Of a DNA stretch of 42,133 bases, positions 7,507-40,577 are shown one piece after another. This stretch comes from an uncultured Erysipelotrichaceae bacterium (lineage in GTDB: Bacteria; Bacillota_I; Bacilli_A; Erysipelotrichales; Erysipelotrichaceae). The first letter of the stretch is position 1; each line of letters opens with the position of its first letter. The stretch lies in NCBI GenBank assembly GCA_944327135.1, contig CALVGQ010000058.1, forward strand, positions 1 to 42,133, read 5' to 3'. A program made the position numbers and the translations under genes. The notes beneath the pieces are model-generated. The model did not search any database and was not told where the DNA came from. It saw only the letters and a program-made list of their open reading frames with translations.

Positions 7507-8838
7507 ATGAAGTTATCCAAACAGAATTTGATTTTATTAAGCTTTATGCTCTTTTCCATGTTTTTCGGAGCAGGCAACCTGATCTTTCCGCCTTTTGAAG
7601 GACATCAGGCCGGCCTTCTTTGGCTGATCGGAATGCTTGGTTTTCTTGTTACTGCTGTTGGATTCCCGATTTTAGGAATTGCCGTCATTGCCCGCTTCAA
7701 CGGGTTGAAGCCCTTGGCCGATCAGGTGCATCCACGCTTCAGCCTGATTTTTACGCTTTTGGTCTATTTATCGATTGGACCGCTTCTGGCCATTCCAAGA
7801 GCAGCCACTTTGCCTTATGAAATGTCCATTGCGCCCTATCTCTCGCCTCAAACCATTCAGCTGGGGCTGCTTCTTTTCTCATTGGTTTTTTTCGGTCTTT
7901 CTTGGTTTCTTTCCCGCAACCCCTCTAAATTGATCCTTTTTCTTGGCAAGATCCTTACGCCAATCTTGCTGCTGCTGATCCTTGCTGTCTTTGTTGCCGG
8001 TCTGATCCACCCTTTGGGAGAAATGGCCCCTGCGATCCGCAATTACGCCGCTCAGCCTTTTGCTGCAGGATTTATCGATGGCTACCTTACCATGGACACT
8101 CTGGCGGCGCTGGCCTTTGGCGGTACCATGGCCGTGGCCGTTCGCAGCTTAAACCTTACTCAGGAAAAGGAAATCGTCCGCTCCTGCATGCTGACCGGAC
8201 TGTTAGCAGGAATCCTGCTTTCCGCCATCTATCTGATGCTGGCTTATTTGGGTGCGACCGCTTCCGCTACGCCGTTAGGAGAGAACGGCGCCGTAACCTT
8301 AACTTGGATCGTCACCCAGCTTTTTGGTCAGCCTGGCATCCTTTTATTGGCCATCATCTTCTTTTTGGCCTGTCTGACAACCTGTGTTGGACTGCTGACC
8401 TCCTGCAGTGAAACCTTTCATGAAATCGCTCCTGTCCTCTCTTATCAACAATATCTGGCGATCCTGTCGATTTTTGCTGCAATCATCTCTAATTTCGGGC
8501 TCAATACGATTCTTTCCTTTTCTGTTCCGATCCTCAATCTGCTCTATCCTCTTGCGCTTGTTTTAATCGTTTTGGGGCTGTTCCACCCTGCCTATGCACA
8601 AAATCGTTTGATCTACCCTGTCACGTTGAGTGTGACTGCCATAATCACCATTTTGAACATGCTGGATCAGCAGCTTAATTTTCAAATTCCCTTTTTCACT
8701 GCCTTGATCCGACAACTCCCTTTTTATTCGCTCTCTTTAGGCTGGTGTTTGGCAGCCTGCATCACGGCAGTTTTGCTTTTCTTTGCCGGCCGGCTCTTTC
8801 GCCATTTTCGATTCATGACAAAAAAAGAAGTTCAGTGA
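7507..8838 (+). CDS. brnQ: Branched-chain amino acid:cation symporter, LIVCS family
   Basis: A 443-residue integral membrane protein with about 12 hydrophobic segments. The N-terminus (LFSMFFGAGNLIFPPFEG) is the family signature of BrnQ carriers, which import Leu, Ile and Val with Na+ or H+. Single-gene plus-strand unit with its own promoter; the stop codon lies in the loop of its terminator. It separates ligA from the sortase operon. Substrate choice among branched-chain amino acids cannot be read from sequence. Confidence 0.95.
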   Translation: MKLSKQNLILLSFMLFSMFFGAGNLIFPPFEGHQAGLLWLIGMLGFLVTAVGFPILGIAVIARFNGLKPLADQVHPRFSLIFTLLVYLSIGPLLAIPRAATLPYEMSIAPYLSPQTIQLGLLLFSLVFFGLSWFLSRNPSKLILFLGKILTPILLLLILAVFVAGLIHPLGEMAPAIRNYAAQPFAAGFIDGYLTMDTLAALAFGGTMAVAVRSLNLTQEKEIVRSCMLTGLLAGILLSAIYLMLAYLGATASATPLGENGAVTLTWIVTQLFGQPGILLLAIIFFLACLTTCVGLLTSCSETFHEIAPVLSYQQYLAILSIFAAIISNFGLNTILSFSVPILNLLYPLALVLIVLGLFHPAYAQNRLIYPVTLSVTAIITILNMLDQQLNFQIPFFTALIRQLPFYSLSLGWCLAACITAVLLFFAGRLFRHFRFMTKKEVQ

Positions 8839-8867: not shown

Positions 8868-9623
8868 TCAAATTTGTTTGGCCACTACGATCAAACGAAG
8901 ATCCTCCCGATCACGCACACAGGTTTGCAGGGTCAGCAGATGATCTTCTTCTTTGATTTCTACTCCTGTCGAATAAAACGCCTTTTCCTGAATATGCTCC
9001 AGATAACTCATCAAGCGGTCTCCATAATCGGTATGAAAATATTCCAGATCCGGATTGCCCATTTCATAATAATAAACCACGGCAATCTCATATTTTCGGA
9101 TCTCTTCTTTCAAGGTCAGCGTAATGATCCGATTCTGAGTATAATTCGCTTCTTCTTTCAATTGATGCAGCGGGCTAAACATCGCAGTCTCATCATAATA
9201 CACATAATGTCCATATACAATCAGATTCTGATCTTCCAGGGTATTGCGATAATCCAGAAAAACCGTCCCCTGTCCGGCATAATTCCCCTCAAAATCAGTT
9301 TTCAGATATTTTTCATTATCTTCACACTGCACGACATTTTCTTGGAACAGCTGCCCAACCTGGATCATTCCGATAAAATCTCCATTGACTGCTGCCAACA
9401 TTTCCATCTGTTTCTGGCGGCGCTCATTGATCCGGTTAAAATACCCAAACGGACTTCGTTCTTCCTTCACTTTTAATAAAGGGCTCTGCAGCGCAAAAGC
9501 ATGAACGACGATCTTCTCTTGTTGAAACAGCAGCAACCCTGCCGACACTGCAAGAGCCACCAATGCAAGCAAAACGAAAACCACCGTTTTTTTCAGCCTT
9601 TTTTTTCTCCGTTTTTCGCTCAT
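8868..9623 (-). CDS. Class B sortase
   Basis: A membrane-anchored cysteine transpeptidase that joins surface proteins or pili to peptidoglycan. The 251-residue protein has a basic N-terminus, one membrane segment (about 14-33) and an extracytoplasmic catalytic domain. The triad is visible: His139 in VYGHYVYYDETAMF, Cys235 in TLQTC and Arg243 in DLRLIVVA. The long insert between strands and the VYGH/TLxTC pattern point to class B rather than A or C. It lies 49 nt downstream of a surface protein on the same strand and most likely shares its riboswitch-controlled transcript. AGGGGTG precedes the ATG. Confidence 0.93.
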   Translation of the reverse strand: MSEKRRKKRLKKTVVFVLLALVALAVSAGLLLFQQEKIVVHAFALQSPLLKVKEERSPFGYFNRINERRQKQMEMLAAVNGDFIGMIQVGQLFQENVVQCEDNEKYLKTDFEGNYAGQGTVFLDYRNTLEDQNLIVYGHYVYYDETAMFSPLHQLKEEANYTQNRIITLTLKEEIRKYEIAVVYYYEMGNPDLEYFHTDYGDRLMSYLEHIQEKAFYSTGVEIKEEDHLLTLQTCVRDREDLRLIVVAKQI

Positions 9624-9672
9624 AATTCACCCCTGAAGAAAGGAGGATGAGCAACACCCTCCTGATCCTCTT

Positions 9673-12399
9673 TTATTTTCCTTTATCGGCCGTATTTGGA
9701 ACGACATACGTCATCGAATTTCCATTGTTGTCTGTGCTCTGAACCGGTTTAGACGGAATGTCCTGATGCGTTGCCGCTTCCAGGGTCACTTCGTTTCCAG
9801 CAATCAAATCAAACAATTCCTTTGTCAGCGAAGTATAAATTTTTCCATTGTATTTCCATCCGTCAAACACAGTTCCTGAAGCCAGAGCCGGTACTTGGAA
9901 TTTCGCGCCAACATTGCTCACTTTATAAGTCTGCGCAGCAATGCCATTGCTAAAATTTATTTTTGCCTCACGAGAATCCTTGATCACATGGAATGTACTG
10001 AATCCATTCGGATTCACAAAAGAAAGAGACTGCCCATCGATAGATTGGACTGGATAGAAGTAATTTTCTCCTTCATGCTCATGAATAATCAAGAAATCGG
10101 ATTCATCCAAAGACTGATTAGGATCAATCAAATTTCCCACCGGAATCGTCATTTTAATAGAATCACTGACCTCCAAAATTCCGGCATGCCCCTCTAAAAT
10201 CACGGCATTCTGATTTTCTCCCTCCGTAACAAGCGCTTCCAGTTCTGTCGTCACGGCTGTTGCCACCAGATTATATTTCGGTGTAATATCAAAAGTCAGG
10301 GTCTGCTGCGCAGATTCTTCGCCGCTATAATTTTCTACTGCAATGTCAATATATGGCTGAACCACGATCTTGAACTCTTCAGAATCAGCAAGAATGTTGT
10401 TCTCAACCAGTTCCATCTTGGACTGTGCTTTTGCCCTTTCAGTAATGATGGAATCGTCTTGGGCCAGACTTTCCGCTGACGATTCAAGCGCAATGGAAGT
10501 GTCCTGCAAATCCGAGATTTCGATGACTTCATTGGCTGAACTATGAATCTTCGTCACTGTCTCTCCCTGCACCACATCCGTCACCACGCCCAATTCCTGA
10601 TTGGCTGTAACTGTAACCGCAATGGAACCAATTTTCTTGTCATTCACCGCTAAACGGGCAGTAATGTTCGCCGTTCCTGGATATACAGCGGTCACTTTTC
10701 CATTTTCATCCACTGTGGCCACATTGTCGTCATCACTTTTCCAGACAATAGAATCATATGCTTGTAAAGATCCCGTAACAGCAATCGTCTGTTCTTCGTA
10801 TTGTTCTAATGTCTCTTCTGTAGTACTGATCGATACATTTGAGTATGGACGAACTACGTAATTTCCCTCCACCGGATAAGAAGCATAACCTTCCGCAACA
10901 TATTGTTCTACATTACTGCTAAATGTTCCGCCAATCACCGAAATAGAAGGTACGCTCGCAGAAGTAGAAATGGTGCCGTAAAATGTCCCCGCTTGAATTT
11001 CCAGCTTTGCCTTCTCTTTCGCATCGGTTTCAGACGCCGTATTGTCCGAACCGCATTCGATTGTTCCTGTGATGGTTCCCGTCATCGTCTGATCAACAGT
11101 GACCTTTACGCCATCCTGATAACCATTGGAAGGCCAATAGTAAACATCAAAAGCCACCCCATCAGATTTAGCAACAATGTTGGTGTTTCCCTTTAATGTC
11201 AGACTGCCAAAATTATTGCTGACAACATAGCCTACGGCATTGCTTCCTTGAGTTGCATCCACTGTCATGTTTTCCAAAGTGAGATCACAGTAATTTTGAA
11301 TCATCATTGTTACGTTGCTGGTATTCGCACGCAATGTTCCATTTTTCAAAACAACCTTATTTCCTTTTTCCAGATGAAAGGCCTGGTTTTCCGTACCGCT
11401 GGAACCGACCGCTCCACCAGTGCAGGTATACGTAAAGCCATTAAAATCAATCGTAATATCCACACCGATTTCATTGTCTTTGTTAAATAAACCGATTCCG
11501 TTTCCTTCCAGATCCTGAAGAAGCTTGATCTCTCCCGACTGATCAGAGGAATGGGCGACCGCCTCCACTGCATCCACTAAATTCGCATAATAGTTTCCCT
11601 CTGCTTGAACCGCTCCTTTTGAAACCGTATATGACTGATTTTCCTGGCTGACACAGTATCCGTTCGCAACAAAATTTGCTACTGGATTTTCTGTTTGGCT
11701 ATTTGATGGATCAAAATTCTCGAAAGATCCCCCTGTTACTTCTATTTTTGCATTACTATTATCAATTAAGTTTAAAAGCCAATAAGTATTGTCGTATTTA
11801 GCTTCAGCCGAAAATTGACCACCTTGAATTTCTGCAATGGCATCATCTCCAGCTTGCACACAAGTTAATCCCGCATGAAAAATACCATTTTCAATCACAA
11901 GTTTAGAATGATCTGCTAACCTAAAAATATATCCGATACTATTATAATTTAAATAGCTGTCATCAAATGTAATCTTTCCATTGCCTAGAATTCTTAACTG
12001 CGCAGAACCGGAAAGATCCACTACCGCATTTTTTTCATTTTCTGAAGCCGAAAGAGTAATAGTATGCCCATTTAAATCTAAAATAAAGGCTTTATCTATG
12101 ATATTCACACCTTGAATTAAATCTGCATCATTTAATAAAGTTATTGTCGATCCCGTTGCAGCATTTTCTAACGCTTCATAGAGTGAATCATACATTTTTG
12201 ATCCGTCAGAAACAACAGAGTTCTCTGACGATAAAACAGAAATGTCATTATTTTCAGAAATACCTGTTCCTTCATTTTCAGTAATTTCTGGTTCCTTTGA
12301 ATTTTCTTCATTTTTGCCGCCATCCGTCGCATAAACCGTCTGATTTACCAACGTCAGGACCAAAAGTAAAGAAAGCAGTGTCTTTGTTCCCTTTTTCAT
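9673..12399 (-). CDS. Secreted surface protein with two beta-helix-like modules, Big_2 domain and C-terminal VPNTADKGK
   Basis: I chose the ATG at 12399 (908 residues) because AGGAGG lies 7 nt upstream and a clear signal peptide follows (about 1-24, cleaving after VYA). The upstream extension to 12477 starts inside a terminator hairpin. Order: acidic linker; two related right-handed-helix-like modules (about 65-260 and 265-515), each starting with a Y-L-x-A-V/L repeat start and ending in GG-T/S-F ... VA-x-GY; bacterial Ig-like Big_2 domain (about 522-600); a long beta-rich region; a repeat resembling Listeria-Bacteroides units (about 812-875). The protein ends in VPNTADKGK, which resembles a sorting signal but lacks the usual hydrophobic segment and basic tail. 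Probable adhesin; ligand unknown. Confidence 0.88.
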   Translation of the reverse strand: MKKGTKTLLSLLLVLTLVNQTVYATDGGKNEENSKEPEITENEGTGISENNDISVLSSENSVVSDGSKMYDSLYEALENAATGSTITLLNDADLIQGVNIIDKAFILDLNGHTITLSASENEKNAVVDLSGSAQLRILGNGKITFDDSYLNYNSIGYIFRLADHSKLVIENGIFHAGLTCVQAGDDAIAEIQGGQFSAEAKYDNTYWLLNLIDNSNAKIEVTGGSFENFDPSNSQTENPVANFVANGYCVSQENQSYTVSKGAVQAEGNYYANLVDAVEAVAHSSDQSGEIKLLQDLEGNGIGLFNKDNEIGVDITIDFNGFTYTCTGGAVGSSGTENQAFHLEKGNKVVLKNGTLRANTSNVTMMIQNYCDLTLENMTVDATQGSNAVGYVVSNNFGSLTLKGNTNIVAKSDGVAFDVYYWPSNGYQDGVKVTVDQTMTGTITGTIECGSDNTASETDAKEKAKLEIQAGTFYGTISTSASVPSISVIGGTFSSNVEQYVAEGYASYPVEGNYVVRPYSNVSISTTEETLEQYEEQTIAVTGSLQAYDSIVWKSDDDNVATVDENGKVTAVYPGTANITARLAVNDKKIGSIAVTVTANQELGVVTDVVQGETVTKIHSSANEVIEISDLQDTSIALESSAESLAQDDSIITERAKAQSKMELVENNILADSEEFKIVVQPYIDIAVENYSGEESAQQTLTFDITPKYNLVATAVTTELEALVTEGENQNAVILEGHAGILEVSDSIKMTIPVGNLIDPNQSLDESDFLIIHEHEGENYFYPVQSIDGQSLSFVNPNGFSTFHVIKDSREAKINFSNGIAAQTYKVSNVGAKFQVPALASGTVFDGWKYNGKIYTSLTKELFDLIAGNEVTLEAATHQDIPSKPVQSTDNNGNSMTYVVPNTADKGK

Positions 12400-12443
12400 A
12401 TTTTCCCCTCCTGTGGCATAAGTGTCTTTCCATATTTGCTCCA

Positions 12444-12466
12444 TTTTTTGCTTAAAACGCAAAAAA
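12444..12466 (-). repeat. Perfect inverted repeat downstream of the riboswitch terminator
   Basis: TTTTTTGC (12459-12466) and GCAAAAAA (12444-12451) pair perfectly around a 7-nt loop. The first arm is the terminator's T run, so this hairpin and the terminator share bases. It may protect read-through mRNA or tune termination; function is inferred only. Confidence 0.5.
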
Positions 12467-12486
12467 TCCCGAGCCACAGGATTTTT
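12461..12486 (-). terminator. Riboswitch expression-platform terminator
   Basis: On the minus strand AAAAATCC and GGATTTTT form an eight-pair stem with a nine-nt loop, ending in a T run. It lies 25 nt beyond the c-di-GMP aptamer and before the surface-protein start, as in transcription-terminating riboswitches. A competing pairing of GCAGGAT (12506-12512) with ATCCTGT (12476-12482) would disrupt it. Confidence 0.8.
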
Positions 12487-12510
12487 CTTTTTACCTTTTT
12501 ATTCTATCCT

Positions 12511-12575
12511 GCAACTGGCTGCCATTTTACAGGCCCTATAGCTTTGCGTCACTGCTTTTCAACAGCTTTGCCCTT
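12511..12575 (-). promoter_or_regulatory. Cyclic-di-GMP-I (GEMM-I) riboswitch aptamer
   Basis: The minus-strand RNA shows the conserved parts of the class I c-di-GMP aptamer in order: GGGCAAAGC, a six-pair stem capped by a GAAA tetraloop, the core GACGCAAAGC, AGGGCCT, then ATGGCAGCC and GTTGC, which pairs back to the 5' GCAA. It sits about 60 nt inside a leader of about 234 nt upstream of the surface-protein gene and is followed by an intrinsic terminator. Recognition is from memory of the family consensus; an Infernal search with the GEMM-I model would confirm it. Confidence 0.88.
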
Positions 12576-12577
12576 GA

Positions 12578-12622
12578 ACTTTTCGATTTCTAGTTTACTA
12601 AATCGCCGTCCACTTGAAAAGT
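12578..12622 (-). other. 5' leader hairpin upstream of the c-di-GMP aptamer
   Basis: ACTTTTC (12616-12622) pairs with GAAAAGT (12578-12584), and inside it CGATTT (12600-12605) could pair with AAATCG (12584-12589). It abuts the aptamer. It could stabilise the transcript or help folding; no family recognised. Confidence 0.4.
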
Positions 12623-12639
12623 ATTACACTTATGGTTAG

Positions 12640-12668
12640 ATTATAATCAGAGCTGAAAAACAAATCAA
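12640..12668 (-). promoter_or_regulatory. Promoter of the surface protein-sortase operon
   Basis: Minus-strand -35 TTGATT (12663-12668) and consensus -10 TATAAT (12640-12645) with a 17-nt spacer. Transcription would start near 12633, giving a leader of about 234 nt that contains the riboswitch and its terminator. Confidence 0.75.
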
Positions 12669-12753: not shown

Positions 12754-14913
12754 TTAGCTTTCTTTCTTTCGAATCGAAGGATGCGAAGCCATGATTTTTT
12801 TAACCCCATAAGGATAACTGAAGGCGATTTCAAGGACCCCGCCGTTCACTCGCACAACAATCCCCTCTCCAAAAACTCCATGAACCACCTTATCCCCTTT
12901 TTTATAGGAAGTTTTCAAACGCTTTTCCAGATGGTTTTCAAATGGCTGATCATTCAAAAACATTGCGGAGTTGAGCACAACTTCTTTCGGTTTACCTGTA
13001 TCAAAGGTCGCACCAATATGCTCGATCATCGATTCATCGATCTCATCAAGAAAACGCGAACGGGTTCTTACTTTCTGCAGGATATAGCTGAATCCCGTTG
13101 ATTCTGTTAAATAAAGCTTTTCTCTGGCCCGAGTCATGGCAACATAAGCCAAGCGACGCTCCTCCTCAATTCCTTTAATTCCTTCCTGCATCGAACGATC
13201 GCTCGGAAAAATTCCATCAGACATGCTGCAGACAAAAACAATATCAAATTCCAGTCCTTTGGCCGCATGAATCGTCATCAGCTGAACTGCCTGTCCGGTT
13301 TCGATTTCCGACTTGTCTCCATACAGTGAAACCAGCTGCAAATATTCATCCAAGGTACTTTCCGGATAGTTGACTGAAAAGCTTTGAACATCATTGATCA
13401 GCTCTTTGAGGTTTTCCAGACGATCTGTCTCTTTTTCTTCCTCCAGCATGGCCCGATAGCCGCTGTCATCCAGCACCATTTCGAGCAGTTTGAATACTTC
13501 AGTCTCTTTTTTTAGCCGACGCCATTTTTCAACCATTTCGACAAACTGGTCTAATGCATTTTGAATCTTCCCGCTAAAAAGACGCTGCTGGCGAATTGTT
13601 TCATACATCGTAGTACGGTTTTGGCGCGCCTGATCTAAGATCATTTCCAGAGTTTTGTTGCCAATTCCCCGGCGTGGATTGTTAATGATGCGTTGAAAGG
13701 CCAGATCATCAGCCTGCTCAATCATTCTCAAATAACATAGCGCATCCTTGATTTCTGCCCGTTCATAAAATTTTATCCCTCCAAAAATAAGATAAGGGAT
13801 ATGCTCATCCAACAGTCCTTTCTCAATCGCACGGGAACAGTAATTGCTGCGGTAAAGAACGGCAATATCGCGATAATCCTTCCCCTTTTGATGCAGCTCG
13901 GCAATCTTGGATGCGATCCAGCGAGCTTCATACTCTTCAGAAGCACTAGTATAATGGGTGATTTTTTCTTTGGATTGATTCGCTGTAAACAACTCTTTTT
14001 CGACCCGATGCTTGTTATATTGGATCACGCTGTTGGCACCGCCCAAAATTTCTGGGGAGGAGCGATAATTCTCATTCAGGATGATCGTTTCTAATGGAGA
14101 AAAATCCCGTTCAAAATTCATGATGATGTTGACATCAGCCCCACGCCAGGTATAGATCGTCTGATCTGGATCTCCAACGACATACACTGAAGACTCTGTC
14201 CCAGCTAAAAGCTGAATCAATCGATATTGAATGGCATCGATATCCTGAAACTCATCCACATGGATATGAGTAAAGCGCCTCTGCCATTTTTCCAGCACTT
14301 CACTGAAGGTTTCAAACATTTTGACGGTTTTCAGCAGCAGGTCATCAAAATCTAAAGCATACAGCTTATTCTGACGTTCCAGATAATACGCATAGACACG
14401 GGCTTTGTTTTTCTCTTTTTCCAAGCTGCCAGCAAACATCAATGCCCGCTCTACCGTGATTTCTGCCGCTTTGTTGTTGGCAATATAATCCAGCATGGAA
14501 GCAAAGGAAATCGTTTGTTTGTCTAAGTTGAATTCCTTATAAGCTTCCTTCAGGATTGCCCGTTGGTCTTCAGCGTCCATGACTGTAAAATTACGCGGAA
14601 ATCCCAGTGTCACAATATCTTCCCGAAGGATTCGAACACAAAGCGAGTGGATCGTGGAAATCCACACCTCTGATCCGCTATCCAGCAGCATCCGCCGGAC
14701 ACGGTCTTTCATTTCATTAGCCGCTTTGTTAGTAAAAGTTATTGCCAGGATCTTGTTAGGCCAAGTCATCCGGTTTTCCACCAGATAAGCGATCCGTGTC
14801 GTCAGCACACGTGTTTTGCCGCTGCCGGCGCCAGCAATGATCCGGACATACTTGCTTTCTGTGGTTACTGCTTTTCTTTGATTTTCATTCAGATTCGCTG
14901 TCAATTCACTCAT
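12754..14913 (-). CDS. pcrA: ATP-dependent 3'-5' DNA helicase PcrA (UvrD family)
   Basis: PcrA unwinds DNA in nucleotide excision repair and clears transcription and recombination intermediates. The 719-residue protein carries superfamily 1A motifs in order: Q motif near the N-terminus, Walker A GAGSGKT (about 28-34), motif II DEFQD (about 220-224), GDPDQTIYTWRGA (motif III), MTIHAAKGLEFD (motif V) and VAMTRAREKLYL (motif VI). The C-terminal part (KKGDKVVHGVFGEGIVV) matches the PcrA tail that contacts RNA polymerase. A GTG three codons upstream is possible, but the ATG has GGTGAT in front and only a short leader from the predicted promoter. Confidence 0.96.
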   Translation of the reverse strand: MSELTANLNENQRKAVTTESKYVRIIAGAGSGKTRVLTTRIAYLVENRMTWPNKILAITFTNKAANEMKDRVRRMLLDSGSEVWISTIHSLCVRILREDIVTLGFPRNFTVMDAEDQRAILKEAYKEFNLDKQTISFASMLDYIANNKAAEITVERALMFAGSLEKEKNKARVYAYYLERQNKLYALDFDDLLLKTVKMFETFSEVLEKWQRRFTHIHVDEFQDIDAIQYRLIQLLAGTESSVYVVGDPDQTIYTWRGADVNIIMNFERDFSPLETIILNENYRSSPEILGGANSVIQYNKHRVEKELFTANQSKEKITHYTSASEEYEARWIASKIAELHQKGKDYRDIAVLYRSNYCSRAIEKGLLDEHIPYLIFGGIKFYERAEIKDALCYLRMIEQADDLAFQRIINNPRRGIGNKTLEMILDQARQNRTTMYETIRQQRLFSGKIQNALDQFVEMVEKWRRLKKETEVFKLLEMVLDDSGYRAMLEEEKETDRLENLKELINDVQSFSVNYPESTLDEYLQLVSLYGDKSEIETGQAVQLMTIHAAKGLEFDIVFVCSMSDGIFPSDRSMQEGIKGIEEERRLAYVAMTRAREKLYLTESTGFSYILQKVRTRSRFLDEIDESMIEHIGATFDTGKPKEVVLNSAMFLNDQPFENHLEKRLKTSYKKGDKVVHGVFGEGIVVRVNGGVLEIAFSYPYGVKKIMASHPSIRKKES

Positions 14914-14930
14914 CGTTATCACCGCTTATC

Positions 14931-18341: not shown

Positions 18342-18367
18342 AAAGGGGCGCTGAAGCGCCCCTTTTT
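18340..18367. terminator. Bidirectional terminator between converging genes
   Basis: AGGGGCGC and GCGCCCCT form a GC-rich stem with loop TGAA, flanked by A and T runs. It overlaps the stop codons of both the PK-C-like gene and the HD-GYP gene. Confidence 0.95.
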
Positions 18368-20879
18368 ATTTTTTCAATTCGCCTGTTTCTCCATCTTCTT
18401 TCATAATTTGGACAAATAATGCTGCTAAAGTAGGATCAAACTGTGTCCCTGCGCAGCGCTCAATTTCGGCCAGCGCCTTTTCTTTCGACATCGGGTTGCG
18501 ATAGCTGCGTTTGGTCGTCATCGCATCATAGGCATCCGCAATCGCCAGGCATCTTCCGGCAATAGGATTCTCCTCTTGTTTCAGCCGCCGCGGATAACCC
18601 TGTCCATCCCAGCGTTCATGATGCCCCAAAACAGCAGGAATAACGTAGGTCAGCGAGGGCAAATGACGAATGATGGAAATAGAATTCTCGACATGCTGCT
18701 GAATCACGGCATATTCTTCCTCGGTCAAAGTGCTAGTTTTATTCAGAATGTCTTCCGGAATCCCGATCTTGCCAATATCATGCAGCAGCGCTGCTTCCCG
18801 AATCAGCTCGATGTGTTCTTCATTCAAACCGACAGCGGCCGCCAGTCGGGCTGCATAATTGGCAACATTATTGGAATGATTAAAGGTGTAATGATCCTTC
18901 ACATCGATTGCCGCAGTCAATGCATAGATCGTACTTGCATACTGCGCATAGACCCGCGGATTGTTTTTACCCGGATTTTCTTTTTTCAGAATCGGTTTTT
19001 CTTCCATCGTATAGCTGATGATCTGATTTTTTCCATTTTGTTTAGCGTAGAAAACGGCCATTTCCGTATGACTAATCAATTCCTGTAAATTCCCGGCCGC
19101 ATACGGATATACGCAAATTCCCACCGAAACTGTAAGATTCTTTTCCCATTGATCCTCGGTTTCATCAAAACCGCGACCAATTTGATTCTTGACCATTTCT
19201 GCAATTTTTCTTGCCGCCTGGCCATCGGTATCTGGCAAAAGCAAAGCAAACTCCTTGTTGCCATAACGGGCAGAAATCCCAGCGCGGCCGCCTGTTGCCG
19301 ATAAAATTTCTGCTACGCCCTGCAATGCGCGATCTCCTTCGCTTCGTCCATACAGCTCATTATACAAGGAAAAATCATCCAAATTAAATAAGATCAATGC
19401 AATGGACGACTGAATATGATCTTGAAATGCTTTTTCAATCTTACCAAAAAAGAATTCTCGATTAAGCAGCCCTGTCAAATTATCATGACTAGCTTTATGA
19501 TAGATCATCTCATACAAATGTGCATTCTTGATCGCAATTCCACTAATCGAAGCAATAAAATCCAAAAACATTAAATTATCCTGGGTATAACGGGCATGCC
19601 CGTTTTTTTCTGATAATGCCAAAATACCTACCAGCTCAGTATCAGAAAATAGCGGAACAAAGCAGCCGATCTGATATTGATCAAACTGCTCCTTTTCTGT
19701 TTCCCACAAAGACTTGTACCAAACGCTATGCCTGAAATCGTTCATCGTTGCCGACTGCTGTTTCATACTCAGCCATTTTACACATGGACTGTCAAAGGCA
19801 AACATCAGCTGTTTGCTGTCAAGCATATTGGCCCCATAAAGCGCCCTATAAGCATGCTCCTCCTCTTTTTTCAAGCAAAGATAAATTTTTTCGACAGCAA
19901 CATTTTCGCGAATAACCTGAATCAGCAGCCCGGATAGCTCTTCCAGCTGGATCGTTCGATTGATTGCTTCACTGTATTCTTTTAATAGCCGTGTTTGCCG
20001 ATTCTCATCCCGCGAAAACATGACATCCAAAAATTGCTTGCTGGTATGATAGATCCCGATAATCAGCAAAGTAAACAAAAGCACGATTAAGGAAGTCGAA
20101 TATTCAGAAAATTGCGGAAAGCGCAGCAAGATCGTTCGTTCAATCGGCTGGATGAAATTCACCAGAAAAACCAAAATTACCGCAGCCGTCAAAGCATAAG
20201 CGGTTCCTCGTGAAACCACCGGAGTCAATTTAAACAGACGCTGACGATACAGCATCGTCACCAGGCAACAGGCATTGACAAGACCGGCCAATGTATCCAG
20301 CGGATACTTGCCAATCGCAGGAATCGTGGCCAATGTCGTCCCCAGTGCTAAAACTGAAATGCCAATTAACAGTGGAGCATAATCGTTCAAAGCCCGCTCC
20401 TTATTTTGAATAGAGCGGAATATGATTCGAAACAAAGCAATCACGACCCAGAAAACCAGCACAACAGGAATCAGGATCGGCCATTTGGCCTCAAAAATAA
20501 ATTCAGCTTGGCCCGCCGAGGTACTGACCACTGTGGCCTCAGTAAACAAAGCGTTGCTGAAATTCAGCATCAAAATCACCAGTGTCATCAGCAAAAAGAC
20601 CCGCCGCTGAAAAAATCCCTGATAACCGACAAACTCACAAATCAAGCAATAATACAAATACGGAATCAAAAACATTCCGCCAATCGAAACCTTGCACCAG
20701 AAATCTACTCCCGGCCAAAGCATTAAACGCATCAGCAAGGAACCCCCTGAAAACAGGATAAAGCTGACCAGCATCATCATAAACAAAAGCACGGTCTTAT
20801 TCTTTTTAACTGCCGTCAAAGCAACAAATATCAGGGAATACGCAAACAGGGCAAACGCCGGTATGATTACTGTTGGCAT
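18366..20879 (-). CDS. 7TM-GAF-GGDEF(degenerate)-HD-GYP cyclic-di-GMP phosphodiesterase
   Basis: 837 residues. The N-terminus (about 1-285) has eight or nine membrane segments like the histidine-kinase 7TM sensor region. A GAF-like domain follows (about 300-450), then a GGDEF domain (about 460-622) and an HD-GYP domain (about 645-830). The HD-GYP set looks complete: His668, His700-Asp701 in HDIGKIGIP, His729, His753-His754 in HHERWDGQGYP, and Asp782. The GGDEF motif reads GNKEF and the first metal Asp is Asn499, so cyclase activity is unlikely; it may bind GTP as a regulatory input. It starts 2 nt after the GH3-like stop with GGGAGGG in front. Expected to hydrolyse c-di-GMP in response to a membrane or extracellular signal. 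Confidence 0.92.
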   Translation of the reverse strand: MPTVIIPAFALFAYSLIFVALTAVKKNKTVLLFMMMLVSFILFSGGSLLMRLMLWPGVDFWCKVSIGGMFLIPYLYYCLICEFVGYQGFFQRRVFLLMTLVILMLNFSNALFTEATVVSTSAGQAEFIFEAKWPILIPVVLVFWVVIALFRIIFRSIQNKERALNDYAPLLIGISVLALGTTLATIPAIGKYPLDTLAGLVNACCLVTMLYRQRLFKLTPVVSRGTAYALTAAVILVFLVNFIQPIERTILLRFPQFSEYSTSLIVLLFTLLIIGIYHTSKQFLDVMFSRDENRQTRLLKEYSEAINRTIQLEELSGLLIQVIRENVAVEKIYLCLKKEEEHAYRALYGANMLDSKQLMFAFDSPCVKWLSMKQQSATMNDFRHSVWYKSLWETEKEQFDQYQIGCFVPLFSDTELVGILALSEKNGHARYTQDNLMFLDFIASISGIAIKNAHLYEMIYHKASHDNLTGLLNREFFFGKIEKAFQDHIQSSIALILFNLDDFSLYNELYGRSEGDRALQGVAEILSATGGRAGISARYGNKEFALLLPDTDGQAARKIAEMVKNQIGRGFDETEDQWEKNLTVSVGICVYPYAAGNLQELISHTEMAVFYAKQNGKNQIISYTMEEKPILKKENPGKNNPRVYAQYASTIYALTAAIDVKDHYTFNHSNNVANYAARLAAAVGLNEEHIELIREAALLHDIGKIGIPEDILNKTSTLTEEEYAVIQQHVENSISIIRHLPSLTYVIPAVLGHHERWDGQGYPRRLKQEENPIAGRCLAIADAYDAMTTKRSYRNPMSKEKALAEIERCAGTQFDPTLAALFVQIMKEDGETGELKK

Positions 20880-38827: not shown

Positions 38828-39718
38828 TCACTCCTTCACCAAATTGGTCTTCTGATGCATGTAGCCGCTGGAGAGCGCCAGATGCGGATATCGGGCCTGC
38901 CGCTCCTCCATGACCTTCTTTGCCGGCTGGCCAGCCAGCACCTGATGAAATCCATCCAAACAGTCAAGAAATTCTTCCTTTTTTAAAAAATGATTATCCA
39001 GCCGAAAGCGCTCTGCTCCACTGGCTATCAATGGCTTTAGCTCAGCATATGCCGCCAGCGTATAATCCGTATAAATCGTTGTTCCCGCAGCATCCTCCAC
39101 AATCGGCATCCGGCCTTGGCGGGTCGTTTCTATCAAAACCAGATCCTGTTTTCCGCTCAGATCCCGATCACTTTGGATCTCAGCCTGATAGGCGCTCAGC
39201 AACGCCCGTTTGGAATAAGCCATCACCAGATGTCCAAACAGAATCAGCTCTGTCTTTCCATGGACCGAAGCGATGATCTTCTGCATCTCCATTAGCGTGA
39301 TTTCTTTCGACAGGATCACTCCGCCCAGTCCCAGATCCAAATAAAACTGAACATCCCGGGTATTGCACATCAGCGTATCCGGATTATAAAAACAAAGACT
39401 TTGCCAGCCACGCGCTTTGGCCCGCATATACACCGCCGGATCCGTATAATCGATCCGATTGATGCCCAGCGCTTCGATCCGATCCAGCGCCTCTTCCAGT
39501 TTCTCAAGATCTTCATCAAAATAAATCCGATTCAGCATGATCCCTGCCTGCAAGCCTAGTCTTCGACACAAAGAAACCGCCGTTTCAATTTCTTCCCAGC
39601 TATTAAGCTGCGGCACCCGACTGGCCAGACTTTCCGGAGCCAGCAGAATCGTGGTAATTCCATGCTGCTTGTAATCTTTCAGGTCCTGCATCCCGGTATA
39701 ATAAGTGATCCATTCCAT
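38828..39718 (-). CDS. trhP1: Peptidase-U32-family tRNA hydroxylation partner, TrhP1/YrrN type
   Basis: 296 residues with the TIM-barrel-like U32 fold (HGITTILLAPESL, ELILFGHLVMAYSKRALL) but without the full cysteine signature, as in YrrN. It is the first gene of the operon and starts 36 nt from a good promoter; trhP2 follows after 4 nt. Expected to work with TrhP2 in tRNA U34 hydroxylation. Confidence 0.85.
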   Translation of the reverse strand: MEWITYYTGMQDLKDYKQHGITTILLAPESLASRVPQLNSWEEIETAVSLCRRLGLQAGIMLNRIYFDEDLEKLEEALDRIEALGINRIDYTDPAVYMRAKARGWQSLCFYNPDTLMCNTRDVQFYLDLGLGGVILSKEITLMEMQKIIASVHGKTELILFGHLVMAYSKRALLSAYQAEIQSDRDLSGKQDLVLIETTRQGRMPIVEDAAGTTIYTDYTLAAYAELKPLIASGAERFRLDNHFLKKEEFLDCLDGFHQVLAGQPAKKVMEERQARYPHLALSSGYMHQKTNLVKE

Positions 39719-39755
39719 TTTTTCACGTCCTTTTTACCCAGATATAGTTTACCCT

Positions 39756-39783
39756 ATTTTACCAGGGGTTGCCACTATTTCAA
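39756..39783 (-). promoter_or_regulatory. Promoter of the trhP1 operon
   Basis: Minus-strand -35 TTGAAA (39778-39783) and extended -10 TGG-TAAAAT (39756-39761), spacer 16 nt. Back to back with the folT promoter. Confidence 0.7.
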
Positions 39784-39801
39784 TAAGCGAAGGAATTCTC
39801 A

Positions 39802-39829
39802 TTGACAAAACTTTAAAACGAATTAAGAT
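39802..39829 (+). promoter_or_regulatory. Promoter of folT
   Basis: Consensus -35 TTGACA (39802-39807) and -10 TAAGAT (39824-39829), spacer 16 nt. Transcription would start near 39836, directly at the riboswitch. Confidence 0.7.
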
Positions 39830-39837
39830 AAAAGAGA

Positions 39838-39934
39838 ACAGAGTAGGGTCATGGGCGTTAAGTGCTGAGGTGACGGGGAGTTGCACCTTGGACGAAAAGA
39901 ACTTCTTGCGGTCCATGATTCGCATCCCACTGAG
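39838..39934 (+). promoter_or_regulatory. Tetrahydrofolate (THF) riboswitch
   Basis: The RNA shows the THF aptamer's conserved parts in order: GAGTAGG, GGGCGTTAAGTG, a stem AGGTG/CACCT around GGGGAGTTG, GGACGAA, then GCGGTCCATGATTCGCATCC. TCATGG and CCATGA form the long-range helix, and GGG/CCC closes the base. It lies upstream of a FolT-like transporter, the classic partner. Downstream, AAAACG...CCTC (39944-39954) can pair with GAGG...CGTTTT (39974-39985) and bury the ribosome site, so control is probably at translation. Confidence 0.9.
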
Positions 39935-39986
39935 ACAAAAAAGAAAACGACCTCTTTTTTGCACGGGTGGAAAGGAGGCCGTTTTG

Positions 39987-40577
39987 ATGAAAAAACTCTA
40001 TTCATTTCCCTTTTCCCGCAGTTATTGGAAACAAGCCGGCAGCGAGCTTCGAAATCTGCGTAAGCTGACGCTTTGCGCCCTTCTAATCGCCTTGCAGATC
40101 GTAATTTCTTCTCTTTACATTCCTGTATCGGAAAATCTTCGGATCTATGGCAGTTTTTTTGTTACCGCGCTGTGTTCCAGCATTGTCGGACCGATCATGG
40201 CCCTGGCTGCCGGATTTATTCAAGACAATCTAAGCTTTTTGATCCATCCCAGCGGAACCTATTTTTTTGGCTATACCTTATCGGCCATGGCCGGAGCATG
40301 GATTTACGCATTATTTCTTTACCGCAGCAAAATCACATTGGTTCGACTTGCCCTTTGCAAGCTGCTGGTCAATCTTCTGGTTAACGTGCTGCTAGGCAGT
40401 CTTTGGTCAACGATTCTTTTTTCTAAAGGATTTTGGTTCTACGTTTCGGCCAGTCTGTTCAAAAATCTGATCCTGCTGCCCCTGGAAATTTTGATCCTGT
40501 ATCTGGTCTTCCAGGCCATCGTTCCCTTCTTATACCGCAGAAAAATGATTGCTGCAGATCGCGTTACTCTATTTTAA
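39987..40577 (+). CDS. folT: ECF transporter folate-binding S component
   Basis: 196 residues with six predicted membrane segments, matching the S component of ECF vitamin transporters (LTLCALLIALQIVIS near the N-terminus, a glycine-rich GYTLSAMAGAW loop). The shared EcfA/EcfT energising module is not in this window. The substrate call rests on the upstream THF riboswitch. ATG at 39987 follows AAGGAGG; longer readings start inside the riboswitch. Confidence 0.93.
   Translation: MKKLYSFPFSRSYWKQAGSELRNLRKLTLCALLIALQIVISSLYIPVSENLRIYGSFFVTALCSSIVGPIMALAAGFIQDNLSFLIHPSGTYFFGYTLSAMAGAWIYALFLYRSKITLVRLALCKLLVNLLVNVLLGSLWSTILFSKGFWFYVSASLFKNLILLPLEILILYLVFQAIVPFLYRRKMIAADRVTLF

Follow-up and report, generated by a model that had tools for sequence, protein, structure and literature searches.

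A cyclic di-GMP riboswitch before a surface-protein gene and a class B sortase gene: a candidate surface-display unit with tailless sorting in an uncultured Erysipelotrichaceae bacterium

Can a surface protein and the enzyme that attaches it to the cell wall be placed under a single second-messenger signal? This question is raised by a minus-strand locus on contig CALVGQ010000058.1 (GenBank assembly GCA_944327135.1) of an uncultured Erysipelotrichaceae bacterium. The whole stretch of DNA analysed, 42,133 nucleotides (nt), is referred to as the window; its host is a gut bacterium related to Holdemania, with a genome of 2.05 Mb in 117 contigs. The locus consists of a class I riboswitch for cyclic di-guanosine monophosphate (c-di-GMP-I), an intrinsic terminator, a gene encoding a secreted surface protein, and a gene encoding a class B sortase. 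We interpret it, with about even confidence, as a two-gene surface-display operon under a termination riboswitch, in which a dedicated sortase would anchor its substrate through a tailless motif; a single signal is likely to govern the surface protein as well as its attachment. The unit combines known kinds of system, namely the c-di-GMP riboswitch regulon and the adhesin–SrtB pair, and is not a new category. The observation made in an earlier inspection of the letters (the sequence-only reading) is confirmed, and its interpretation is partly supported.

The class I aptamer that the sequence-only reading had placed in the leader was recovered with the covariance model for c-di-GMP-I (GEMM-I) riboswitches, RF01051, at positions 12582-12507 (minus strand), scoring 61.7 bits against a gathering score of 35. 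The match covers the full model (1-87; expectation value (E) 7.7e-10 in a search of the window, 5.9e-12 in one of the leader), and in the alignment the aptamer carries the conserved core GGCAAA, a GAAA-type P2, GACGCAAA, and AUGGCAGCC. When the whole genome was searched, no second c-di-GMP-I aptamer over the cut-off was found, making this a single copy. The intrinsic terminator proposed behind the aptamer is located at 12487-12461 (minus strand; GAAAAAUCCUG-UGGCU-CGGGAUUUUUU) and is seen in the sequence and in folding; a simple terminator scan did not pick it up, probably because the U-run is paired into the stem. A promoter-like site, TTGATT-17-TATAAT (10/12), at 12668-12640 (minus strand) comes from a consensus scan only, which returned 17 such sites in the region against 9.5 expected from shuffles, about a twofold excess.

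The unit is situated between pcrA (12754-14922) and brnQ (7507-8838, plus strand). Upstream, it is insulated by the pcrA terminator (12746-12719, minus strand), read from the sequence as AGGAACC-GCUUUGGA-GGUUCCUUUUUU, and a terminator 3' of the sortase gene (8850-8819, minus strand), with a strong hairpin and a U-run seen in sequence and folding, faces brnQ. These two flanking terminators enclose exactly the surface-protein gene and the sortase gene, which fits the claim that no other genes are on the transcript, and the two plausibly form one transcription unit behind the riboswitch.

The surface-protein gene (12399-9673, minus strand) encodes 908 residues and likely starts at ATG 12399 behind GGAGGGG (ribosome binding site AGGAGGGG, 12412-12405, minus strand), with its stop at 9673; a listed GTG start at 12477 was rejected as unlikely, since that position falls within the riboswitch terminator. 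By inspection of the sequence the protein has a signal peptide, and a Pfam match over cut-off places Big_2 at residues 521-589. The sequence-only reading had described a beta-helix/Big_2 adhesin; the Big_2 part stood, while the beta-helix, an impression suggested by the repeat pattern only, found no support from Pfam or Protein Data Bank (PDB) matches. An adhesin role is presumed. The second gene (9623-8868, minus strand) encodes a protein of 251 residues with an N-terminal membrane anchor, in which PF04203 is over cut-off and the catalytic residues His139, Cys235, and Arg243 are conserved. It scores 119.3 bits with the class B model TIGR03064, below the equivalog cut-off of 153.75, and matches solved class B sortases in the PDB with E down to 2.6e-21. 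By every comparison it is thus a class B sortase, as had been read from the letters, and it is too divergent for the equivalog name. Its closest relative is found in Holdemania filiformis DSM 12042 (57% identity). The host genome bears a second class B sortase on contig C21, and no further one was found there.

Whether transcription that passes the riboswitch also reaches the sortase depends on the intergenic gap of 49 nt, which holds a ribosome site and a hairpin at 9670-9635 (minus strand; -20.1 kcal/mol, z -2.0) followed by a poor U-run (UUCUUC), a possible attenuator or processing site. The hairpin may attenuate or process the transcript, and this is the main doubt about co-regulation. Taken further, the riboswitch would control the surface protein only: the hairpin would stop most transcripts, and the sortase, as a housekeeping-like enzyme, would be expressed from a weak promoter of its own. 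The stability of the hairpin favours such an arrangement, as do several relatives in which the related sortase gene stands alone or behind ftsZ with no surface protein upstream, and a unit of another genome (G296, L209), in which a true terminator parts a riboswitch-led LPQTG adhesin from a sortase gene and which was consequently rejected as a candidate third riboswitch-adhesin-sortase unit. We nevertheless consider control of the surface protein only unlikely, given the poor U-run, the gap of just 49 nt with its ribosome site, and the closest sortase relative, in Holdemania, whose partner protein likewise bears such a motif. Additionally, the sequence-only reading depended on the sortase gene having no promoter of its own, and the consensus scan found none above chance level just upstream of it. 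The claim that the anchoring enzyme itself is under second-messenger control is plausible and has a parallel in another genome (G243, described below), although the intergenic hairpin could uncouple the sortase.

Regarding the distribution of such units, 52 of the 311 genomes of the order contain a c-di-GMP-I aptamer. The 93 riboswitch units that have a gene no more than 700 nt away were sorted into gene classes with a simple script: many precede genes for secreted or wall-anchored proteins, and others precede genes for GGDEF proteins, pilin-like proteins, or enzymes. In this order, then, there is nothing unusual about a riboswitch in front of an adhesin gene. A sortase within the riboswitch unit was found, among these 93, in the window and in G243 (L201:2437-7138). 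The G243 unit, which was found in the present analysis and not taken from the literature, comprises an aptamer of 63.1 bits, a leader terminator, a 222-residue class C/E-like sortase, and, 3 nt downstream of the sortase, a 1300-residue LPHTG protein, in an apparent single operon. Another candidate (G007, L073) was rejected, its sortase being on the opposite strand. The window and G243 differ in sortase and gene order; placing a sortase and its presumed substrate under one riboswitch thus seems to be rare, yet to have evolved at least two separate times. Class-wide (394 genomes, 107 with the riboswitch), no close riboswitch-sortase pair was found among the sites listed; this is weak negative evidence, since it covers those sites, sortases were checked in 80 genomes, and a PF04203 search had failed to detect the sortase of the window itself. 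A literature search with limited access to subscription journals found no publication on a riboswitch-sortase operon or on 'VPNTG'. In relatives (L070, L071, L181, L183, L185, L186, L187, and L188), c-di-GMP-I aptamers were seen in tandem, two to four per array at a spacing of about 130 nt; most of the arrays precede genes whose secreted products resemble one another at the C-terminus and look CAP-like by eye.

How would the sortase recognise the surface protein? The latter ends ...MTYVVPNTADKGK, with only four residues after VPNTA, so that the sortase-like motif VPNTADKGK (9702-9676, minus strand) closes the protein. Neither a membrane segment nor a charged tail was found after it, and the protein therefore lacks the classical LPXTG-type signal (motif, membrane segment, charged tail) and is not a classical SrtB substrate. 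In this respect the sequence-only reading, which implied a classical sorting signal, did not hold: the chain ends ...YVVPNTADKGK without a membrane segment. No PF00746 anchor over cut-off was found in the genome. A tailless signal is known from AbpA of oral streptococci, in which LPKTS is followed only by AVK; AbpA is encoded in a two-gene abpA-srtB locus, is anchored by SrtB, and is lost to the supernatant without SrtB (PMC4974636). The window has the same kind of arrangement, VPNTA-DKGK and then the stop, with a class B sortase gene 49 nt downstream. By analogy with AbpA/SrtB, this tailless VPNTA motif is what would link the sortase to the surface protein and allow covalent anchoring.

The motif recurs beside class B sortases. 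When each distinct C-terminus is counted once, it closes 7 of 28 upstream neighbours of class B sortases and 0 of 1056 other open reading frames (ORFs) with a length of 150 residues or more (Fisher p 3e-12). The seven cases belong to about four families and the definition of the motif postdates them, which reduces the effective weight of the evidence, although it is still strong. For instance, a SpaA/thioester protein that ends ...IELPEMGEKR is encoded ahead of the other class B sortase of the host genome, the H. filiformis sortase relative has upstream of it a fucosidase-bearing surface protein of 2333 residues that closes with ...GGYQVPNTGVR, and in several relatives SpaA proteins ending ...VPNTGV have a class B sortase a few bases downstream. 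Tailless VPNTG/LPEMG-type secreted proteins directly 5' of class B sortases are found at L146:2730-10570, L099:4377-8578, L112:6293-10071, and L113:6491-10311. The Holdemania surface protein at L146:2730-9731 combines an alpha-L-fucosidase, F5/8, and InlB-type repeats with the tailless motif, and is possibly a mucin-directed surface enzyme.

The end of the surface protein can also be read differently: the protein may simply be secreted, or its C-terminus may be a decayed sorting signal, the sortase serving other proteins. VPNTADKGK without a hydrophobic segment or charged tail behind it would look like this, and in related surface proteins of the order (for example L122 and L123) PxTG/PxTA-like motifs are still followed by a membrane segment. 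More widely, relatives of the surface protein, whose likeness lies mostly in the middle region and Big_2, often have classical tails and for that reason do not settle how its C-terminus should be read. We find secretion or decay doubtful, as AbpA needs no membrane segment and three other families beside class B sortases stop right after such a motif, where independent decay is hardly expected. The recurrent tailless motif may be the more interesting aspect. Tentatively, and with more doubt than attaches to the operon itself, gut bacteria of the Erysipelotrichales might possess a tailless sorting route, with class B sortases dedicated to substrates whose chain stops directly behind VPNTG, VPNTA, or LPEMG; in the lineage of the window c-di-GMP would turn both partners off, making anchoring a direct output of the second messenger.

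The direction of the switch was approached by folding the leader from its presumed start, which gave three states within 1 kcal/mol: the terminator (-41.6 kcal/mol), antiterminator A (-41.9), and antiterminator B (-41.1). In predicted antiterminator A, AGCUAUAGGG of aptamer P3 (12543-12534, minus strand) pairs with UCCUGUGGCU (12481-12472), and in predicted antiterminator B, AGUUGCAGGAU at the 3' end of the aptamer (12516-12506, minus strand) pairs with 12482-12472. Both antiterminators consume aptamer bases and are mutually exclusive with the aptamer, whereas the terminator shares none with it; enforcing the Rfam aptamer pairs raised the terminator-core probability from 0.57 to 0.97. Because of these relations, the folding predicts an OFF switch, in which c-di-GMP would end transcription and lower both proteins. 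At low c-di-GMP, aptamer strands would capture the terminator's 5' half in an antiterminator and the polymerase would read through, so that both the surface protein and the class B sortase dedicated to it would be produced; the sortase would then join the protein to the wall via VPNTA-DKGK, as streptococcal SrtB does with AbpA. At high c-di-GMP, the bound ligand would stabilise the aptamer, the terminator would form, and both genes would be shut off. All seven functional class I switches of Clostridioides difficile are OFF (PMC6366702). An ON switch, with c-di-GMP raising both proteins as in the class II adhesin switches of C. difficile and in Bacillus thuringiensis Bc2, would suit the biological expectation that c-di-GMP favours adhesion, but it is quite improbable, since both antiterminators compete with the aptamer and the terminator does not, and no aptamer-compatible antiterminator was found in the leader folding.

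The signal itself is very probably made by the host, because its genome has GGDEF domains with intact motifs (seven matches, the motif being intact in at least two). A membrane GAF-GGDEF-HD-GYP protein is encoded at 18366-20879 (minus strand), 6 kb from the riboswitch unit; as its GGDEF motif is degenerate (GNKEF) and its HD-GYP signature intact, it is probably a c-di-GMP phosphodiesterase.

Several points weigh against an operon switched off by c-di-GMP with AbpA-like anchoring. The strong 9670-9635 hairpin could stop or reduce transcription ahead of the sortase gene; the sortase scores only 51.7 bits with the AbpA-type model NF040525 (cut-off 200) and so falls outside that LPKTxAVK-specific family; the Holdemania gene pair has no c-di-GMP-I aptamer; and the host genus is represented by a single genome, too few to show conservation of the unit. 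Furthermore, the class I switch Bc2, which precedes the adhesin gene cap, is ON (PMC4933901), and class membership alone therefore does not give the direction. If the reading is true, an anchoring enzyme and the protein it anchors would stand under one riboswitch, and surface protein and attachment would be switched jointly. Likewise, tailless sortase substrates would extend from one streptococcal adhesin to several unrelated gut-bacterial surface proteins (SpaA/thioester proteins, the fucosidase-bearing protein, and the Big_2 protein of the window), which searches for LPXTG plus a membrane segment would miss.

Elsewhere in the window, a tetrahydrofolate riboswitch at 39837-39934 (plus strand; 84.6 bits) falls in the 5' portion of the ORF listed at 39705-40577, which in reality probably begins further downstream, and nine tRNA matches cluster at the contig end (1-1051, minus strand), one of them cut by it.

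When compared with known systems, the locus shares with CD2831/CD3246 and SrtB of C. difficile a class B sortase and c-di-GMP riboswitch control over surface proteins (PMC4591827, PMC6200980), whereas the switches there are class II and ON, the signals are classical (S/P)PxTG, and srtB lies elsewhere. The contrast with C. difficile drawn in the sequence-only reading holds: srtB is in no operon with its substrates and has its own native promoter (PMC4591827). With Bc2 of B. thuringiensis (cap/cbpA) the present locus shares a class I riboswitch and terminator directly before an adhesin gene; Bc2 differs in having been measured as ON and, in the accessible part of that report, regulation is described for cap alone (PMC4933901). 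G243, from another genus of the same order, likewise has a c-di-GMP-I riboswitch and leader terminator before sortase and surface-protein genes, but its sortase comes first and is class C/E-like, and its substrate has a classical LPHTG signal with a membrane segment. The abpA-srtB organisation, stated to be absent outside oral streptococci (PMC4974636), offers the nearest model for anchoring: a two-gene locus with a secreted adhesin, a class B sortase, and a short tail without a membrane segment. The window differs from it in VPNTA-DKGK in place of LPKTS-AVK, in the adhesin, and in the c-di-GMP riboswitch in front; by analogy, its pair would work like AbpA and SrtB from outside that sortase family.

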